From Bacteroidota bacterium (GTDB lineage Bacteria > Bacteroidota > Bacteroidia > Palsa-948), in contig JACRAM010000110.1 in NCBI GenBank assembly GCA_016213405.1, positions 1 through 39,212 of the forward strand: a stretch of 39,212 nt of DNA, in the 5' to 3' direction. Shown piece by piece: positions 18,275 through 38,993 of this stretch (position 1 is the stretch's first letter; every line of letters begins with the position of its first letter). The notes under the pieces were generated by a model, which was given only the letters and a program-made list of their open reading frames with translations, had not been told where the DNA came from and made no database searches. A program made the translations under genes and the position numbers.

Positions 18275-19840
18275 TCAATGGAAAATATCCTGCATCACAA
18301 GCGGGCGCTCATTTTCTCTCCATATAAAATTTTTAAGTTTGAATTCGTCAGGTATGTAATCGCTCATAGGGAAAAGTGTGGCATCTGGTTTTTTTAGAAA
18401 AGTGATATTATCAACTGCGTTTTCTTTCAGATAGATTATCAGGTCGCTGCATTCTGCTTTGTTCACACCAATCATCTTTTCTTTGTCCTTGGCAAAATAA
18501 ATTGTCTGCCCGTTTCCTTCCACATAAATTTTTACGAGATTGTTATCCTTGAAATAACCTGTCATCTGCTTTCCCTTTATCTGATTGTACATGGCAGAAT
18601 CTTTTTTCGCTAAACTATCGGGAAGCAGTGTGTGCGATGACGTATCAACTTTTGAAATTATCATTGACAACTTTTCAAGGAACATATTTTTGATTTCTCC
18701 GTTACTCATTTTTATATTTATTTTTTCGGCAGTCAGCTGATTGGCTTCTGACCAGAGAACGGGAGCTTTGAAAAGTTTCATCAGAGAATCTCGGTCGGAA
18801 TAGGTGAGTGAATCACATTTTCCCTGCAAGTCATCTTTAAAAAATTTGACATGATGATAGGCAACTACTTTTCTCCACGATTGAGAAGTGTCTTTTTCAT
18901 GTTTGGCATTCAGGGCATATTCAGTGATGGCGCACAGCGTATCAGAATGAAGAAAGAGCGTATCGTCTTCATAAAATTGTTTCAGCAAAGCATTTTTTGT
19001 GATGATTGATTTTTCAGTTTCCTCGTTATGAATGGCATAATCACCGGCAATAATTATTCTTTCCGAAGTATCAATGATGCTCACATTCCTGAATGCCTGC
19101 CCTATGCCTTTGTTCCGGTCATAGGCAATGCTGTCGCCTTTGAGTTTTTGGTTTTTAGAAATGAGGTAAGAGTTTTTGCTGAACTGCGAAGTGTTTTTCT
19201 CTGTATCGTACCAACCGTTTTCGCAATAAATAAAATTCTGATCGCTTTTTATTATTGTAGGACCATAGAAATAAGAAACTTTTGAACCCGTGTTGTAAAG
19301 CAGCGTATCGCTGTTCATCACGTATTCAGGATTGGTGAGCACCACATTCTGCTTGAAGGAAAATGATTTGGTATCGGCATGATAATATCCTTTCTGGCTG
19401 GTGAGCGTATTCTGCTTGCTCACGATGGTTCCTCCGCTGGTGTAAGTGGCAACGGAAGAATGCATGTCATAAAATAATTGTTCGGTGGTGAGCGTCATTT
19501 CTTTATCGCTGAGGCGAATGTTTTTCTGAACTTCAGCCATGCGCGTGTTGCCATCATACTTCAGCAATTGCCCGAATAAATTCAGCGTATCTCCCTGCTG
19601 AATATGAATGTTGCTGAATGCGTCTATTTTATTATTGGGGTAGAGGTAAGCGCTGTCGCACGACATTAAAACCCCTTCGTGCCTGAACTGCACATTTCCA
19701 ATCAGCCGTTTCACATCCTTGCCGAGTTTCTCATCAAACTCGAGCGAGTTGGCGTGGAGGAGTTCTACCTTTTTGGTTTGGGAAAAAGACAATACAGAAT
19801 ACAGAATGAAGAATAAAGAATAAAGAAAACTACTTTTCAT
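18275..19840 (-). CDS. OstA-like (LptA/LptD N-domain family) LPS-transport-related protein
   Basis: 521 residues from ATG 19840; a TTG three codons earlier overlaps the promoter box. The signal peptide is cut near LSFSQ. The mature protein is a long chain of OstA-type beta-jellyroll repeats: VELLHANSLEFDEKLGKDVK, LIGNVQFRHEGVLMSCDSAY, LYPNNKIDAFSNIHIQQGDT, and later KLKGDSIAYDRNKGIGQAFR. In the family this fold makes the periplasmic bridge (LptA) or the N-domain of LptD that carries LPS to the outer membrane. The length suggests a Bacteroidota LptA variant with several repeats. The hydrophobic core of the signal peptide is encoded by a tandem repeat (19788-19829) that also occurs after gyrA. 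Confidence 0.85.
   Translation of the reverse strand: MKSSFLYSLFFILYSVLSFSQTKKVELLHANSLEFDEKLGKDVKRLIGNVQFRHEGVLMSCDSAYLYPNNKIDAFSNIHIQQGDTLNLFGQLLKYDGNTRMAEVQKNIRLSDKEMTLTTEQLFYDMHSSVATYTSGGTIVSKQNTLTSQKGYYHADTKSFSFKQNVVLTNPEYVMNSDTLLYNTGSKVSYFYGPTIIKSDQNFIYCENGWYDTEKNTSQFSKNSYLISKNQKLKGDSIAYDRNKGIGQAFRNVSIIDTSERIIIAGDYAIHNEETEKSIITKNALLKQFYEDDTLFLHSDTLCAITEYALNAKHEKDTSQSWRKVVAYHHVKFFKDDLQGKCDSLTYSDRDSLMKLFKAPVLWSEANQLTAEKINIKMSNGEIKNMFLEKLSMIISKVDTSSHTLLPDSLAKKDSAMYNQIKGKQMTGYFKDNNLVKIYVEGNGQTIYFAKDKEKMIGVNKAECSDLIIYLKENAVDNITFLKKPDATLFPMSDYIPDEFKLKNFIWRENERPLVMQDIFH
19788..19829. repeat. Tandem-type dispersed repeat encoding the OstA signal peptide core
   Basis: The plus strand reads as short iterations of AATACAGAAT, GAAGAATAA and AGAATAAAG. 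A related copy lies at 39000-39023 between genes (GAATACTGAATAAAGAATAA). On the minus strand this copy encodes the hydrophobic core of the OstA signal peptide (FLYSLFFILYSVLS). Confidence 0.6.
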
Positions 19841-20464: not shown

Positions 20465-20677
20465 TTGCTTTTGCTTACGCGATAGTTAATGTTGTATAAA
20501 CAACCTTAAAAATTGAACGAATAACATTTGAAGCTGAACGAACAACATTTTATTTTAAATGAACGATATTTAAAATTGAATGAATTACTTTTAAAGATGA
20601 ATGAATAACATTTAATGCTGAATGAGCAACACTTAATGTTATATGAACAACATTTAATGTTGGATAAGCAAAAGCAA
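20465..20677. repeat. 13-bp perfect inverted repeat bracketing the 21-nt array
   Basis: TTGCTTTTGCTTA at 20465-20477 is the exact reverse complement of TAAGCAAAAGCAA at 20665-20677. The second copy lies inside the last array unit. Confidence 0.6.
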
Positions 20678-20722
20678 ATGTTCACCCAAGCATTTTTGAG
20701 TTTGGACGATGGAATTCAATAA
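20489..20722 (+). pseudogene. Possible decayed heptad-repeat coding region
   Basis: From ATG 20489 one frame runs through the whole 21-nt array to TAA 20720-20722. It reads as leucine-spaced heptads (LNEQHFI, LNERYLK, LNELLLK, LNEQHLM, LYEQHLM, then LDKQKQMFTQAFLSLDDGIQ). It is broken by TAA codons at 20507, 20522 and 20606; the last two sit where the repeat pattern predicts CAA (Gln). The last intact piece, ATG 20615 to 20722, is 35 codons. It could be a dead coiled-coil gene or a non-coding minisatellite whose unit happens to be a multiple of three. No homologue is recognised. Confidence 0.35.
20491..20679 (+). repeat. Degenerate 21-nt tandem array, about nine units
   Basis: Units resemble GCTGAATGAACAACATTTAAT. 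The last four (20596, 20617, 20638, 20659) are exactly 21 nt; earlier ones vary from 18 to 24 nt. The total length keeps one frame, in which the units read as L-N-E-Q-H-L-K/M. Stops in this frame occur where GAACAA has become GAATAA. Confidence 0.8.
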
Positions 20723-21123: not shown

Positions 21124-22485
21124 ATGAAAAAGAAATTTATTTTGCTGACTTCTACACTCATTTTTATTAGTGTAAATATAAATGCTCAGTGGGCACTTGT
21201 TGGTTCTGCTGGTTTTTCCGCAGGTCAGACATATTTTAATTCCATAGCAATTGACGGTAATGGCACTCCTTATGTAGTTTATCAGGATTTTGGAAATTCA
21301 TGGAATGCAACTGTTATGAAGTATAATGGGACAAATTGGGTAAATGTTGGTTCTCCTGGATTTTCTACAGATACTGTATTTTATACTGATATAGCTATTA
21401 ACAATAATAATGAACCTTTCGTGGTATATCAGGATTTTGGAAATTCATATAGAGCCACTGTAAAAAAATTTGATGGGACAAATTGGGTGAATGTTGGTTC
21501 TGCCGGGTTTTCAGCGGGAGCAGCATTTTATAATTCAATAGCAATGGACACAAACGGAACTCCTTATGTCGCATATCAAGATGGTGGAAATTCGTGGAAA
21601 GCTACGGTAATGAAGTTTGACGGTACAAATTGGGTAAATGTTGGTTCTCCCGGGTTTTCTCCTGACCAAGTTGTAGACGGACCCAAAATAAAGATTAGTA
21701 ATAATGGTACACCATTCGTGGTTTATCAAGACCCAGGCATCTCAAGAAAAGCGACAGTTATGAAATTCGATGGTACAAACTGGACTATTGTCGGTTTACA
21801 AGGTTTTTCTGCCGATACAGCATATAATCCATCAATTGCAATAGACAGTAATAATACTCCTTTTGTAGTTTATGGAGATTATTCCATTTCCGGAAAAGCA
21901 ACAGTTATGAAATTTGACGGTATGAATTGGGTTACTGTGGGTGCGGCAGGGTTCTCTGCTGGTTATGCCCTAAGTACATCTATCGCCATTGACAATAACG
22001 GAACTCCACTTGTAGTTTATTCAGATTATGGAAATAACTACAAAGCAACAGCAATGAAGTTTAACGGAACTAATTGGATTAATGTTGGTAATGCAGGATT
22101 TTCAGCAGGAGGAGTAGTTTATACTTGCATAAAAATTGATGACAACGGAACCCCTTACGTTGTTTACCAAGACGGAGCACATTCAGGCAAAGCCACAGTC
22201 ATGAAGTTTATAGGTTCTAATGGTATTCTAAATACCTTGATAGAGATAGGTATTGACATTTATCCCAATCCCTTCTCCACACAAACAACTTTGCAAACAG
22301 ACAATCTTTTACACAACGCAACTCTCACAGTTTACAATTGTTTCGGGCAGGAAGTAAAGTCATTAGTCATTAGTCATTCGCCATTCGTCATTGAGCGAGG
22401 CAATCTTCCAAGCGGACTGTATTTCATTCGGCTGACAGAAGAAAATAAAACCTATGCAAAAGAGAAATTAATAATAACGGACTGA
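21124..22485 (+). CDS. Seven-repeat beta-propeller T9SS cargo protein
   Basis: 453 residues. A signal peptide (cut near NINAQ, residue 22) is followed by seven very regular ~49-residue repeats, each with W-V-N-V-G-S-x-GFS, a SIAIDxNGTPYVVYQD strand and KATVMKFDGTN. Seven equal units predict a closed seven-bladed propeller. The last ~80 residues are a T9SS type A sorting domain (IDIYPNPFSTQTTLQ, TVYNCFGQEVKSL, SGLYFIRLTEENKTYAKEK). Between its strands the peptide VISHSPFVIE is encoded by a short tandem repeat (22358-22392), an in-frame repeat insertion. The stop abuts the stop of the convergent DPP-IV gene with no gap. Likely a secreted or surface-bound binding protein; ligand unknown. Confidence 0.9.
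   Translation: MKKKFILLTSTLIFISVNINAQWALVGSAGFSAGQTYFNSIAIDGNGTPYVVYQDFGNSWNATVMKYNGTNWVNVGSPGFSTDTVFYTDIAINNNNEPFVVYQDFGNSYRATVKKFDGTNWVNVGSAGFSAGAAFYNSIAMDTNGTPYVAYQDGGNSWKATVMKFDGTNWVNVGSPGFSPDQVVDGPKIKISNNGTPFVVYQDPGISRKATVMKFDGTNWTIVGLQGFSADTAYNPSIAIDSNNTPFVVYGDYSISGKATVMKFDGMNWVTVGAAGFSAGYALSTSIAIDNNGTPLVVYSDYGNNYKATAMKFNGTNWINVGNAGFSAGGVVYTCIKIDDNGTPYVVYQDGAHSGKATVMKFIGSNGILNTLIEIGIDIYPNPFSTQTTLQTDNLLHNATLTVYNCFGQEVKSLVISHSPFVIERGNLPSGLYFIRLTEENKTYAKEKLIITD
22358..22392. repeat. Tandem 'AGTCATT' repeat inside a T9SS sorting domain
   Basis: Iterations of AGTCATT or CGTCATT (about four copies, plus CGCCATT) are read in frame as LVISHSPFVIE. The repeat sits in the loop between two conserved strands of the sorting domain (FGQEVKS and SGLYFIRL). 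Confidence 0.65.
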
Positions 22486-30870: not shown

Positions 30871-30886
30871 CTGAAAAGGAAATAAA

Positions 30887-31118
30887 GGTATAGGGTATAA
30901 GGAAGCTCTAAAAACTCAAATAACAAAAAACAAATCTCAAATAATCTCCAATGACCAAAATTCAAAATTCAAAACAATACAAAACAACTCGTTTCTGCTG
31001 TTTGTTTGACTATTTGAATTTGGAGTTTGTAATTTATTTGTCATTTGGGATTTGTATTTTTGGATTTTAGAGATGCCTATAAGAAAAATACATTCTCATC
31101 TACCCTATACCCTATACC
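30887..31118. repeat. 232-bp inverted-repeat element between tRNA-Gly and purB
   Basis: GGTATAGGGTATA (30887-30899) is the exact reverse complement of TATACCCTATACC (31106-31118). Inside, the left half (AACAAAAAACAAATCTCAAA, CCAATGACCAAAATTCAAAA) opposes the right half (TTGAATTTGGAGTTTGTAAT, TTTGTCATTTGGGATTTGTA). No coding frame is present. It fills most of the gap between tRNA-Gly and purB. Confidence 0.7.
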
Positions 31119-31127
31119 CTAAAACAC

Positions 31128-33056: not shown

Positions 33057-35624
33057 TTATTCTTCTTTCTTCTTCGTCTTTTTTCCTGTTCCGATTTTTC
33101 CATCGGAATCTTTCGGCTTCACCACTTTTATAGTTGCTTCTTCCGCTCCTTTTTCATAGTCAATTTCAATGGTGTCGCCTTCAGCAGCGCCTGCATTGAT
33201 GATTTCTTCCGCAAGAGGGTCTTCAATATATTTCTGAATCGCACGCTTGAGCGGGCGGGCTCCGTATTGAGTATCAAATCCTTTGTCAACTATGAAATCC
33301 TTAGCGGCTTCTGTCACTTTGATAGTAAAGTTCAGCGTGCCAACGCGCTTATAAAGTTTATCCAGTTCCACTTCAATAATCTTATGGATGTGCTCCTTGG
33401 TGAGTGAATTGAACACCACCACATCATCAATGCGATTCAGAAACTCAGGAGCAAAACTTTTCTTCAGCGCTCCTTCAATCACTCCTTTGGCAAAACCATC
33501 AGCAGAAACATTTTTTGCCGCAGTGGCAAAACCAACTCCCTGTCCGAAATCTTTTAACTGGCGTGTGCCGATGTTAGAGGTCATGATGATGATGGCGTTT
33601 TTGAAATCTACTTTTCTTCCGAGAGAATCGGTGAGCTGTCCGTCATCCAGCACTTGCAAAAGAAGATTGAACACATCAGGGTGTGCTTTTTCAATTTCAT
33701 CAAGCAGGATGATGGAGTAGGGCTTGCGCCTTACTTTTTCCGTAAGTTGTCCGCCTTCTTCATAGCCGATATAGCCGGGAGGCGCTCCTATCAAACGAGA
33801 CACGGCAAACTTCTCCATGTATTCGCTCATGTCAATACGAATCATCGCATCATCGGCATCAAACAAATATTTTGAAAGTTCTTTAGCCAGTTGGGTTTTT
33901 CCTACACCGGTTGGTCCAAGGAAAATGAACGAACCGATTGGTTTGTTCGGATCTTTCAGCCCGGCACGATTGCGCTGAATAGCTTTCACTACTTTTTTAA
34001 TGGCTGCTTCCTGTCCGATAACTTTGTCCTGCAATGCTTCGTTCATATTTACAAGACGTGAACTTTCCTTCTGCGCGATGCGCTGAACCGGAACTCCGGT
34101 CATCATAGCCACCACTTCAGCTACATTATCTTCTGTAACCACCTGCCGGTGCGTTTTGGTATCTTCTTCCCAAGCTTTCTTTGCAACTTCTAATTGTTCC
34201 AGCAATTGTCTTTCAATATCGCGGAGGCGTGCCGCTTCTTCAAACTTCTGGCTTTTCACCACTTTGCTTTTCTGATCCTTTATTTCTTCCATCTTCTTCT
34301 CTATCTCAAGAACATTTTCAGGAACTTTGATGTTGATGATGTGAATTCTTGAACCTGATTCATCCAAGGCATCAATCGCTTTGTCAGGAAGATTTCTGTC
34401 AGACATATAGCGCGTAGTAAGATTCACGCACGCTTTAATAGCATCATCTGTATAGGTAACATTATGATGGTCTTCGTATTTTGATTTAATGTTGTGAAGT
34501 ATCTGAATGGTTTCATCCACAGAAGTAGGTTCAATCATCACGCGCTGAAACCTGCGGTCAAGCGCTCCGTCTTTTTCAATGTACTGGCGATACTCGTCTA
34601 AAGTGGTTGCTCCAATGCACTGAATTTCTCCTCTTGCAAGAGCGGGCTTAAACATGTTGGATGCGTCAAGCGAACCGGACGCACCGCCTGCTCCTATAAT
34701 TGTGTGAATCTCGTCAATGAACAAAATCACATCGGGTGATTTTTCCAATTCATTCATTACCGCTTTCATTCGTTCTTCAAACTGACCGCGATATTTAGTC
34801 CCCGCTACCAGTGACGCAAGGTCGAGCATCACAACACGCTTGTTGAATAACACGCGTGATACTTTGCGCTGAGTAATCCGGAGCGCAAGACCTTCTACAA
34901 TTGCTGATTTACCGACTCCCGGTTCTCCTATGAGAATCGGGTTGTTCTTTTTTCTGCGGCTGAGAATCTGAGAAACCCGTTCAATTTCTTTTTCTCTTCC
35001 CACAATAGGGTCGAGGCGGCCTTCTTCTGCCGCTTTGGTTAAATCTCTTCCGAAATTATCAAGCACAGGAGTTTTTGAACGCGATTCGCCACCGCCTTTC
35101 TTCGGATTGCTTCCGTAGGATGTATCATCATCGTCATCATCTGCCTGTGTGGGAAATTCTGCTTTAGGATCAAATAAAGGGGATTCCGGATTCATTGTTT
35201 CTAATTTTTCTTTTACCACTTCATAATCCACATTGAATTTATGAAGTGATTTGGTTGCTATGCTGTCATTATCTTTTAATATGGCTAACAAAAGATGTTC
35301 CGTTCCAATCAATTCGCTTTTCAGTTCTCTCGCTTCCAAATGCGTGAATTTGATGGCGCGCTCCGCCTGTTTCACCAATTGTATGTTCTGTAATTTGAAA
35401 GTGCTTTTCTTGCCGGGTGTGGCAATGGATATTTCAAGTTCTTTCCTCAGATCAGAAAGATTGATGTTCAGGTCTTTCAGTATCTTAATTGCCTTGCCAG
35501 TTCCTTCACGTATCATTCCTAATAAAAGATGCTCAGGTCCGATGTAGGAATGACCTAAACGGAGAGCCTCCTCTCTGCTGAAAGAAAGGACATCTTTTAC
35601 TCGCTGTGAGAATTTCGCTTCCAT
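33057..35624 (-). CDS. clpC: ATP-dependent Clp protease ATP-binding subunit ClpC
   Basis: 855 residues. Two Clp-N repeats at the start (FSREEALRLGHSYIGPEHLL; FTHLEARELKSELIGTEHLL), an acidic linker (DDDDDDTSYG), AAA module 1 (Walker A GEPGVGKS near residue 228; ILFIDEIHTIIGAG), a middle region with the UVR-type motif FEEAARLRDIERQLLEQL, AAA module 2 (GPTGVGKT near residue 570; LLDEIEKAHPDVFNLLLQ) and a C-terminal Clp-D2-small domain (TQYGARPLKRAIQKYIEDPL). ClpC unfolds proteins and feeds ClpP. No CIRCE or mcsAB-like genes are seen. A repeat-rich 349-bp gap follows upstream of the start. Confidence 0.97.
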   Translation of the reverse strand: MEAKFSQRVKDVLSFSREEALRLGHSYIGPEHLLLGMIREGTGKAIKILKDLNINLSDLRKELEISIATPGKKSTFKLQNIQLVKQAERAIKFTHLEARELKSELIGTEHLLLAILKDNDSIATKSLHKFNVDYEVVKEKLETMNPESPLFDPKAEFPTQADDDDDDTSYGSNPKKGGGESRSKTPVLDNFGRDLTKAAEEGRLDPIVGREKEIERVSQILSRRKKNNPILIGEPGVGKSAIVEGLALRITQRKVSRVLFNKRVVMLDLASLVAGTKYRGQFEERMKAVMNELEKSPDVILFIDEIHTIIGAGGASGSLDASNMFKPALARGEIQCIGATTLDEYRQYIEKDGALDRRFQRVMIEPTSVDETIQILHNIKSKYEDHHNVTYTDDAIKACVNLTTRYMSDRNLPDKAIDALDESGSRIHIINIKVPENVLEIEKKMEEIKDQKSKVVKSQKFEEAARLRDIERQLLEQLEVAKKAWEEDTKTHRQVVTEDNVAEVVAMMTGVPVQRIAQKESSRLVNMNEALQDKVIGQEAAIKKVVKAIQRNRAGLKDPNKPIGSFIFLGPTGVGKTQLAKELSKYLFDADDAMIRIDMSEYMEKFAVSRLIGAPPGYIGYEEGGQLTEKVRRKPYSIILLDEIEKAHPDVFNLLLQVLDDGQLTDSLGRKVDFKNAIIIMTSNIGTRQLKDFGQGVGFATAAKNVSADGFAKGVIEGALKKSFAPEFLNRIDDVVVFNSLTKEHIHKIIEVELDKLYKRVGTLNFTIKVTEAAKDFIVDKGFDTQYGARPLKRAIQKYIEDPLAEEIINAGAAEGDTIEIDYEKGAEEATIKVVKPKDSDGKIGTGKKTKKKEE

Positions 35625-35656
35625 AGGTTTTGAGAGTATGATGTTTTTATCTCGCT

Positions 35657-35755
35657 GATGGTTGCATGGGTTTACCCCGTTGGATTTTACTTTTAGTTCT
35701 TTTTATTACGTAATTTACTAAAGACATCCTACGGGGTTTAACGCTTGTCATGGTT
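35657..35755. repeat. Inverted-repeat element upstream of clpC
   Basis: GTTTACCCCGTTGGAT (35670-35685) opposes ATCCTACGGGGTTTAAC (35726-35742) with few mismatches; outer GATGGTTGCATGG and TCATGGTTG add further similarity. The rest of the 35625-35973 gap holds AT-rich DNA and the left repeat of the four-helix-bundle cassette. Confidence 0.6.
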
Positions 35756-35925
35756 GAAATGTTACGTCTGCTCAAAAATAAACATATTCACACAGGTCAA
35801 ATGTATATTTCGCAACGTCACCTATCCCGTCAAAAGCAAGCATATTTTCCAACATGAAAATGTTCATAATTAAAGGGTTTGGAGTATATTTATCGCATGG
35901 ATAAATCGGTTATTTTCACAGCAAA

Positions 35926-35957
35926 AGTTTACTGTTTTCTGTTTACAGTTTACAGTT
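35926..35957. repeat. Left flanking repeat of the four-helix-bundle cassette
   Basis: Made of iterations of TTTACTGTTTTCTG and TTTACAG. It opposes the repeats at 36374-36405 and 36432-36459, which carry ACAGAAAACTGTAAAC and ACAGAAAACCGTAAACC. Confidence 0.65.
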
Positions 35958-35973
35958 CAATACAAGATACAAA

Positions 35974-36375
35974 ATGGCAAGTTTCAAACGGTTTGAAGAC
36001 ATAGAAGCGTGGAAGTTAGCGCGAGAAATATCAAAAGAAATTTATAAAGTTTCCGGTATCGGAATATTTGCCAGAGATTTTGAGTTAAAAAATCAGGCAC
36101 GAGCGTCATCCGGTTCTATGATGGATAATATCGCGGAAGGATTTGGCAGAGGAGGCAAAAATGAATTTGTTCAGTTTCTTACAATAGCAAAAGGTTCTGC
36201 TGAAGAATTGAAGTCGCAATTGTATCGTTCATTAGATAATGAATATATCTCTGAAAGCATATTTGAAAACATATACACAAAAACAGATACTTATAGCAAA
36301 ATGACAGCTGGTTTAATTTCATATTTAAACCAATCATCCATCAAAGGAGAAAAGTTCAAGAATAGAGTAAACTAA
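35974..36375 (+). CDS. Four-helix-bundle protein (S23 / 23S rRNA intervening-sequence family)
   Basis: 133 residues, the family's usual length. The start FKRFEDIEAWKLAREISKEI, then FELKNQARASSGSMMDNIAE, the hallmark IAEGFGRGGKNEFVQFLTIA and KGSAEELKSQLYRSLD define the S23/four-helix-bundle family, related to proteins encoded in 23S rRNA intervening sequences and to Avd of diversity-generating retroelements. The mode of action is not established; a ring-shaped nucleic-acid-binding oligomer is known for Avd. No rRNA or reverse transcriptase is nearby. The gene is boxed by inverted repeats of a CAGTTTACAG type, and the right repeat begins at its stop codon, so gene and repeats look like one inserted cassette between clpC and gyrA. 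Confidence 0.9.
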   Translation: MASFKRFEDIEAWKLAREISKEIYKVSGIGIFARDFELKNQARASSGSMMDNIAEGFGRGGKNEFVQFLTIAKGSAEELKSQLYRSLDNEYISESIFENIYTKTDTYSKMTAGLISYLNQSSIKGEKFKNRVN

Positions 36376-36459
36376 CCAAAAACAGAAAACTGTAAACTGA
36401 AAACTCTTTTAGTATAATTGGCTGTTGAACCGTAGACAGAAAACCGTAAACCGTAAACC
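36374..36459. repeat. Right flanking repeats of the four-helix-bundle cassette
   Basis: Two related copies: ACCAAAAACAGAAAACTGTA onward (36374-36405) and GTAGACAGAAAACCGTAAAC onward (36432-36459). Both are inverted relative to the left repeat at 35926-35957. The second ends 8 nt before the gyrA start. Confidence 0.65.
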
Positions 36460-36467
36460 TTTTTTGT

Positions 36468-38993
36468 ATGGCTGAAGACAAAATCATTAACGTAAATATT
36501 GAAGATGAAATGAAGGTTGCCTACATTGATTATTCAATGTCGGTGATCGTATCGCGCGCGCTTCCCGATGTGCGTGACGGATTCAAACCCGTGCACCGCA
36601 GAGTTCTTTATGGAATGCAGGACTTAGGTGTATTCTCCAACCGCCCCTATAAAAAGAGTGCCAGGATTGTCGGAGAAGTTTTAGGCAAATACCATCCGCA
36701 TGGAGATTCATCTGTGTATGATACCATGGTGCGCATGGCTCAGCCATGGTCGTTGCGATATCCGTTGGTTGACGGACAAGGCAACTACGGTTCTGTGGAT
36801 GGAGATCCTCCGGCAGCCATGCGTTACACCGAAGCGAGAATGAAAAAGATAGCGGAGGAAATGCTTGCTGATATTGAAAAAGATACCGTTGACTTCCGCC
36901 CGAACTTTGATGATTCGTTGACTGAGCCAACTGTTCTTCCTACACGAATTCCGAATCTGCTTGTGAATGGCGCTTCAGGCATTGCAGTGGGAATGGCAAC
37001 CAACATGCCACCGCATAACCTCACAGAAATAGTTAACGCCACCATCGCTTACATTGATAACCGCGACATTACGGTGGATGATCTGATGAAATTTGTAAAA
37101 GCTCCCGACTTTCCTACAGGAGGAATTATTTACGGATTCGAAGGCGTGAAAGAAGCATTCCATACCGGAAGAGGAAGAGTGGTGATGCGTGCCAAGTATG
37201 AAATTGAAGAACATAAAGGAAGAGAGCGCATTATCGTTTCAGAGATTCCGTACATGATCAATAAAGCCAAGCTGATTGAAGACACCGCAAATCTTATTTC
37301 AGATAAAGTGATTGAAGGCATTTCAGATATCCGCGATGAATCCGACAGAGACGGAATGCGCATAGTATATGAACTGAAAAAAGATGCCATTTCAAAAGTG
37401 GTGGTCAATAATCTTTTTAAGCGCACAGAACTTCAGTCCAGTTTCAGCGTGAACAATGTGGCACTCATAAACGGAAGACCGCAGTTATTAAATCTCAAGC
37501 ATCTCATAGCAAGTTTTGTCGAGTTCAGGCACGAGGTGGTGGTGCGCAGAACCAAATTTGAATTAGCCGAAGCGGAAAAGCGCGCTCATATATTAGAAGG
37601 ATATTTAATTGCGATTGATAATTTAGATGAAGTCATTAAAATCATACGTGCGGCTAAAACTCCTGATGAGGCAAAAACAGGATTGATTGCCCGTTTTAAA
37701 TTCAGCGAAGAGCAGGCAAAAGCCATTCTTGAATTACGCCTGAGAGTTCTCACCGGACTTGAGCGCGACAAGATACGTGCCGAGTACGAAGACCTGATGA
37801 AAATGATTGCGTTCTTAAAAGATGTTCTGGGCGATGAAATTCTCCGCTATGAAATTATCAAGAACGAACTCAATGAAGTAAAAGAAAAATACGGTGACGA
37901 GCGCAGAACCGAAGTGGTGTATGCGGCTGACGAGATGAACATGGAAGCGCTTATCCCCGATGAAAAAGTGGTAGTTACCATTTCTCACATGGGCTACATC
38001 AAGCGCACCGATTTAAAGGAATACCGCAAGCAGGGGAGGGGAGGCAAAGGTTCAAAAGGAAGCGCCACCCGCGAAGAAGATTTTCTCGAACACATGTTTG
38101 TTGCCAGCACGCATAATTATCTTTTGTTCTTCACCGAAAAAGGAAGATGCTTCTGGCTCAGGTGCTATGAAATTCCCGAAGGAACAAAAACAACAAAAGG
38201 CAGAGCACTTCAAAACGTAATTCAAATTCCGCCCGATGATAAAGTGAAGGCGTTTGTTAACGTGAAATCAATTACGGATGCGGAATACATCAATAATCAT
38301 TTCGTGGTGATGTGCACCCAACAAGGCACCATCAAGAAAACCACGCTTGAACAATATTCACGCCCGCGCGCGAATGGAATTCATGCCATAAAAATTGACG
38401 AAGAAGCAAAAGATGTATTGATAGCAGCAAAGCTTACAGACGGAAAATCTGAAATAATGATTGCCCTTAAATCAGGAAAAGCCGTTCGCTTCCCTGAAGG
38501 AAAAATTCGCCCAAGCGGAAGAACAGCAGCCGGAGTGCGCGGAATCAGATTGAATGAAGAAATGAAAGACGATAAAGTGATAGGAATGATTTGTATAAAA
38601 CATCTTGAGCAAACCGTATTGGTAGTTTCTGAAAAAGGTTATGGCAAGCGCACACCGGTGGATGAATACCGAATAACAAACAGAGGAGGAAAAGGAGTGC
38701 GCACCATCAACATCACAGAGAAGACAGGCAACCTCATAGCCATACGCGATGTAACGGATAAAGACGACCTGATGATTATCACCACCAACGGAATCACTAT
38801 TCGCATGGCAGTTTCTGATCTCAAAGAAAAAGGAAGAGCCACTCAGGGCGTGCGTGTGATTGATTTAGCGGATGGAGATGAAATTGCAGCCGTGGCAAAA
38901 GTGGATGTGGAAGCGCAGGAGGAAAACGGAAATGAAACCCCTTCGGCAAATCCTCCAGCTCCTGAAAATCCAACGGAAGAAAGTCCAAGTTAA
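36468..38993 (+). CDS. gyrA: DNA gyrase subunit A
   Basis: 841 residues. The N-terminal breakage-reunion domain has [32 protein letters not shown] and the catalytic Tyr120 in [10 protein letters not shown]. The quinolone region [10 protein letters not shown] keeps Ser81 and Asp85 (equivalent to E. coli Ser83 and Asp87), the drug-sensitive state at those two sites. The C-terminal DNA-wrapping propeller has the GyrA box ([11 protein letters not shown]), which separates it from ParC. The tail is acidic and Pro-rich ([15 protein letters not shown]). Its 5' region has been overwritten up to 8 nt before the ATG by repeats of the four-helix-bundle cassette, so its promoter must lie inside or beyond them. 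Confidence 0.97.

Follow-up and report, generated by a model that had tools for sequence, protein, structure and literature searches.

An S23-family gene between clpC and gyrA belongs to a copied cassette framed by inverted arrays of short units

Between the divergent genes clpC and gyrA of a Bacteroidota bacterium lies a small S23-family gene enclosed by inverted repeats, an arrangement that raises the question of whether gene and repeats form a mobile unit and, if so, how the repeats relate to the protein. The initial annotation of the window (the whole stretch of DNA analysed, 39,212 nucleotides, which is contig 110 of the source genome G000, 3.65 Mb and 95% complete) described an S23/Avd-related gene of 133 residues and proposed that it had been inserted here together with its repeats. 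The identity of the gene is confirmed by two profiles, PF05635 (E=4e-29; 101.5 bits, curated cut-off 33.8) and TIGR02436 (E=2e-27; 95.6 bits, cut-off 24), and by structural comparison: the AF2 model is a confident four-helix bundle (pLDDT 93) whose nearest Foldseek matches are 2gsc and 2rld, followed by Avd (TM at most 0.94 by target; 0.86 by target for Avd 4dwl), with matches also to the DGR ribonucleoproteins 8ub7/8ube. As the annotation had also stated, there is no rRNA at the locus: the site is the clpC-gyrA gap, and an Rfam search of positions 35600-36600 matched no family. The element is about 530 bp long, has the orientation of gyrA, contains the PF05635 gene as its sole gene, and comprises the following features:

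35909..35925, no strand: left target edge, resembling the gyrA leader of sister genomes (by-eye alignment with L055 and L056).
35927..35957, plus strand: left arm, GTTTACT GTTTTCT GTTTACA GTTTACA GTT, with five GTT cores at an exact 7-nt spacing (starts 35927/35934/35941/35948/35955).
35974..36375, plus strand: S23/23S_rRNA_IVP four-helix-bundle gene, 133 aa (PF05635, TIGR02436, AF2 pLDDT 93, Foldseek 2gsc/2rld/Avd 4dwl).
36374..36405, minus strand: right arm 1, AAC CAAAAAC AGAAAAC TGTAAAC TGAAAAC T, with five AAC cores at 7-nt spacing (minus-strand GTT; starts 36374/36381/36388/36395/36402).
36420..36426, plus strand: GGCTGTT motif, which recurs at the inner edge of mini-elements without the gene in this genome.
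36428..36459, minus strand: right arm 2, a period-7 array with cores AAC GAC AAC AAC AAC.
36460..36467, no strand: right target edge, the final 8 nt ahead of the gyrA ATG (by-eye comparison).

The repeats had been placed correctly at 35926-35957 on the left and at 36374-36405 and 36428-36459 on the right; the right repeat does reach the stop region (the first AAC of right arm 1 overlaps the stop codon), and the second right repeat does end 8 nt short of the gyrA ATG, at 36468. It had been missed, however, that the repeats are tandem arrays in their own right, each with period 7 and five cores, the left arm consisting of GTTNNNN heptamers and the right arms of NNNNAAC heptamers. Right arm 2 probably represents the right-hand half of a mini-element that lacks the gene and belongs to the unit family of the cassette, since it is preceded by GGCTGTT, as in the mini-element L080 between rpoA and rplQ; the window would therefore hold a composite. 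Upstream of the cassette, at 35672-35741, there is a second inverted pair (CCCCGTTGGA ... TCCTACGGGG), which recurs in the left flank of L007, within its left arm; both cassettes are of the GTTTAC type. Elsewhere in the window, lone heptamer arrays without an inverted partner occur at the ends of reading frames (AATAAAG x5 at 19791-19827 and AGTCATT x5 at 22358-22392), and a 21-nt unit, TTAATGTTGAATGAACAACAT, is repeated in tandem in 8 copies in the intergenic DNA at 20486-20682.

The genome G000 contains 23 PF05635 genes, and nearly all of them have arms of their own, which answers the question, raised with the first description, of whether repeats surround other copies of the gene: at most copies they do. 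The self-match of the flanks of the 23 copies at lag 7 is 0.42/0.41 versus 0.25 at a distance of 300-1000 bp, and it remains raised at lag 14 (0.385/0.38) and lag 21 (0.36/0.335), distant DNA giving about 0.25-0.28; in a few copies the period is 8 instead of 7. The unit varies from copy to copy (GGATTAA, GTAGGCA, CCAAGTC, GTTTGTA, etc.), the left and right arms of one copy being generally more alike than arms of different copies, while the close paralogues L021 and L022 have one unit in common, as do L007 and L008.

Gene and arms have been copied jointly into new intergenic sites. Firstly, the homology of non-orthologous copies stops at the arms (L021/L022, L007/L008 and L005/L141): in L021/L022 it extends from -48 of the ATG to +15 of the stop, and L005 and L141, which are of different families, are 76% identical across 497 bp. 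Secondly, empty sites are found. In the sister genomes G001, G004 and G005 the element is absent from the clpC-gyrA gap, as expected of the insertion that had been proposed there, and by eye the window has lost some 20-25 bp of the gyrA leader relative to the sisters. At nuoI-nuoJ, where L005 is inserted, G001, G002 and G006 have an empty site and G003 has a hairpin that lacks the gene and is built of a related unit; the L022 gene is absent from its site in all six sisters compared. The mobile unit postulated from the window alone is thus supported by 23 copies, homology up to the arms and empty sites. At three gene-bearing sites and one in uvrA no target duplication was seen, bases having been lost instead, in flanks that have diverged; nor was a fixed target sequence found among the insertions. 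Other repeat families occupy the corresponding gaps of sisters (ctccccactggggag..., gccctaaaggg...), at the nuoI-nuoJ gap in L086 and L090 and at the L022 site in L098 and L100. The cassettes lie in sense between co-directional genes in a ratio of 160:1; the median distance to the neighbouring gene is 56 nt upstream of the ATG and 45 nt downstream of the stop.

Versions without the gene but with the same arms also exist, and at least one of them has been copied. In 400 kb sampled from the 3.65 Mb, together with the window, 102 arrays have a period of 7 or 8, versus 13 in shuffled sequence, and there are several short-loop inverted pairs, versus zero after shuffling. Two gene-less hairpins, L068 and L073, have a nearly identical 24-nt loop, from which it follows that mini-elements are copied too. 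In uvrA (L077, 13490-13562) a mini-element lies in frame; its place is empty in three sisters and holds other inserts in two. The uvrA linker, where in-frame inserts of differing repeat families are found across species of the genus (L077, L252, L256), is an insertion hot spot within a housekeeping gene. Mini-elements also insert into one another, as at 30884-31125 of the window, between a tRNA gene and purB, where a CAAATT-type gene-less inverted array is nested in a TAGGGTA-type one.

The density of 7-nt arrays was compared in nine genomes, five with the gene and four without it. Per 100 kb it amounts to 18.5 in G000, 32.7 in G006, 8 in G015, 6 in G034 and 1 in G020 (the last with 7 genes, yet at background), as opposed to background values of 0, 2.7, 1.2 and 1.0 in the four relatives without the gene; periods other than 7 give no such gene-linked difference. 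In G000, gene-less array units resemble those of the resident elements clearly but modestly more than those of foreign ones (3.34 vs 3.04, the best of 50 foreign draws being 3.21), and in three further genomes with few data the difference could not be resolved. The refuting condition named at the outset, repeats that are common without the gene and unrelated to it, does not count against the cassette: repeats without the gene belong to the same unit families, and their density was no more than background in the four genomes lacking it. The motif AACAGCC/GGCTGTT has 10 of its 41 hits within 30 nt of arrays, where 0.8 would be expected; as a general inner motif it was discarded, being confined to the genus level (7 of 194 elements).

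The association extends far beyond this genus. In a single scan the window protein had 80 named relatives, nearly all with RTTYNNN arrays, in Bacteroidota, Planctomycetota, Calditrichota, Acidobacteriota, Armatimonadota, Verrucomicrobiota and Candidatus Abyssobacteria, and PF05635 was found in 157 of 198 sampled Bacteroidota genomes (at most 22 per genome in that search). An array of 7-10 nt period is present in at least one flank of 88% of 194 elements versus 2.4% of 375 control flanks. Among these elements, 200 arrays have period 7, 35 period 8, 13 period 9 and 2 period 10, and in 152 of the 194 the pairing of an element's own arms lies within the top 5% relative to swapped flanks. Both arms have the same period in 87 of 89 cases. 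The left array frequently ends only a few nucleotides before the start codon. Plasmids provided an independent set: 17 records, mostly cyanobacterial, match the window protein (50,697 phage records gave no match), and inverted heptamer arms were seen in five of five cyanobacterial cases inspected, two of which are one Calothrix cassette. The Nostoc copy has GGGAAAA arms and the Calothrix copy AGGGTGT arms. The identical cassette of Calothrix brevissima plasmids 1 and 2 (L305, L306), downstream of a phage-integrase gene, reflects a larger duplication and no cassette jump, because the flanking genes are common to both.

Gene and arms behave as one linked unit, the repeat word being specific to the protein lineage. 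As protein distance increases, unit similarity decreases (Mantel r=-0.44; 500 permutations, mean 0, sd 0.04, extreme -0.12), and among the closest proteins unit similarity is 3.37 on the same strand vs 1.30 on the opposite one, so that the effect is confined to one strand sense. This correlation proves linkage and not contact, since co-inheritance alone would produce it. Spacer identity between arms is 0.61 within an element vs 0.35 across elements, and the base-paired register of the arms shows no preference (p=0.87, n=18), by which exact hairpin pairing was ruled out as a conserved property. As the unit is common to both arms and the paired register is not, the arms look, from their sequences, like two sets of predicted binding sites rather than the halves of a selected stem. 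Because the hairpin register is not kept, recognition of the unit suits the data better than the recognition of the repeat hairpin that had been expected at first.

The number of units is also informative. Runs of exact RTT cores were counted in the window's subfamily (85 elements): left arms have four cores in 14 cases, five in 31 and six in 3, and right arms four in 14, five in 28 and six in 6, while core runs in control flanks are almost always 1-2. The chance of another core is 0.74 from four to five, 0.30 from five to six and 0.60 from six to seven; the runs stop sharply at five, and simple slippage would not give these probabilities. In other subfamilies the ratio of array length to period peaks at 4-5. 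Five is the mode and no strict rule, arrays of 9-18 units also existing and detection splitting imperfect arrays into shorter runs. Five chains are present in each of the solved homologous structures, 2gsc and 2rld, and XCC0516 is reported to be a toroidal homopentamer (PMC4990558); by analogy the window protein is probably a pentamer, each subunit of which would take one unit.

In our judgement, the account that is reasonably likely to be right is that of a mobile cassette. Its protein, probably a pentamer, would read single-stranded nucleic acid, one unit to each subunit, and its transfer would rely on strand-transfer functions of the host. A promoterless-looking gene lies between two arrays, each of five short units that read inwards; the protein would form a pentameric ring with one core bound per subunit, the core being GTT in the subfamily of the window and the 4-7 nt that separate the cores serving as linker. 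Among relatives the core-to-core spacing varies from 7 to 10 nt while the core is kept, and this favours a flexible single strand wound round the ring, as in TRAP, over rigid double-stranded DNA. Protein on both ends could mark or hold the cassette and, where an array abuts the start codon, could throttle its own translation. Host replication or repair functions (a guess) would join the cassette into new sites with a few bases deleted, the gene would persist only where an operon transcribes through it in sense, and copies that lose the gene would remain as mini-elements, mobilisable in trans. The cassette and the link between protein and repeat are shown, whereas binding, stoichiometry and the manner of movement are the parts that we infer; the sense-only orientation could instead indicate an RNA step.

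Such an RNA step is central to an alternative that we regard as unlikely, namely that the cassette is the mRNA counterpart of the 23S rRNA intervening sequences (IVSs), whose arms would pair in the transcript, RNase III cutting the stem, and which would spread via RNA. Both have the same protein family, an ORF between ends that could pair with each other and a sporadic, apparently horizontal distribution; the 160:1 sense orientation inside operons would suit it, the Coxiella IVS is cleaved in its stem by RNase III (PMC4990558), and the minimum free energy RNA fold of the window encloses the ORF between the paired left arm and right arm 2 (z=-2.2). But the arms have a common unit and lack a preferred paired register, so stem pairing is not the conserved trait; and, unlike an IVS, the cassette lies between protein genes, away from any rRNA, occurs many times per genome and ends in five-unit arrays of an element-specific unit. 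Moreover, no match to the reverse transcriptase profile PF00078 was obtained in G000.

Less probable still is that the arrays act only in translational autoregulation, as binding sites in the 5' leader, and were dispersed by ordinary recombination or horizontal transfer. The position of many left arrays, a few nucleotides from the start codon, speaks for it, and TRAP, a ring protein that binds one short core per subunit with variable linkers, regulates translation in this way; the likeness to TRAP is an analogy only, as the latter has eleven subunits, triplets and an unrelated fold, and is not mobile. This explanation accounts neither for the equal opposite-strand array past the stop codon nor for the gene-less copies that keep both arms.

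A further proposal, to which we give little credence, takes the protein for an Avd relative that moves by retrohoming with the help of a reverse transcriptase acting in trans. Avd is a pentamer, and the fold of the cassette protein is that of DGR Avd, as the Foldseek matches to 4dwl and 8ub7/8ube attest. In contrast, PF00078 is missing from its own genome in spite of 95% completeness and 23 copies, by which a resident reverse transcriptase was rejected as the mover, and from 29 of 40 relatives, including the element-rich G014, G018, G019, G025, G029 and G034.

That the arrays are simple-sequence slippage with no tie to the gene, as has been proposed for over-represented bacterial heptamer repeats (PMC4692102), is hardly credible, contradicted as it is by arrays that are inverted with unit and period common across the gene, track the protein sequence, stop at five and fall to background in four gene-lacking genomes.

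The open-access literature (closed literature and preprints lying outside its scope) yielded no report joining PF05635 genes to such arrays. The favoured cassette resembles the REPIN/RAYT and MITE systems in combining scattered palindromes with a gene-bearing relative whose ends are the same, the gene-less copies being more numerous than the gene-bearing ones in the sampled DNA; it differs from them in that its protein is a four-helix bundle without nuclease domain and its ends are tandem arrays of a unit private to each element. Heptamer repeats have been described as GGGNATC and GGGGA(C/T)T in Xanthomonas and Nostoc, and in Calothrix PCC7601 (cited in PMC4692102). Xanthomonas campestris, from which XCC0516 comes, has GGGAATC heptamers in the gaps separating aligned ORFs. 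Many form inverted pairs, of which a genome contains 70-75, and arrays of four units are strongly preferred; their role was left open, G-quadruplexes being proposed by Rehm et al. (PMC4692102). TAACTGA repeats of Beggiatoaceae were proposed by MacGregor to exert translational control (PMC4679880). All of these are 7-nt units in intergenic DNA, as in the cassette arms, but no associated gene is given in those reports; by comparison with our elements, they may be S23-cassette arms, and cassettes may explain the abundance of 7-nt repeats in bacterial genomes.

A wider proposition, in which our confidence falls somewhat below even, is that the cassettes make up a new class of transposase-free elements of many phyla, with five-unit ends counted by a pentamer and lineage-specific words, that they are the main source of heptamer repeats and that IVSs are their rRNA-inserted copies. 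If true, it would bring together a very common family of proteins with no assigned function, the overabundance of 7-nt repeats in bacteria, described as unexplained in PMC4692102, and the way in which S23 IVSs spread. Hundreds of protein variants adjoining the words that they apparently read may also constitute a natural specificity code and, as each variant adjoins its own words, binding is directly testable with cheap oligonucleotides.

Members of the family have been noted in two other contexts: IVP ORFs occur in rRNA insertions of CPR bacteria (PMC11270868), and a PF05635 protein is listed among the associations of CRISPR adaptation modules (PMC10910872). The latter could arise from insertion into an operon, since on a plasmid of Pseudanabaena galeata (L309) a cassette with arms of well over 10 heptamers (AAAAGCT) sits between cas6 and cas4.
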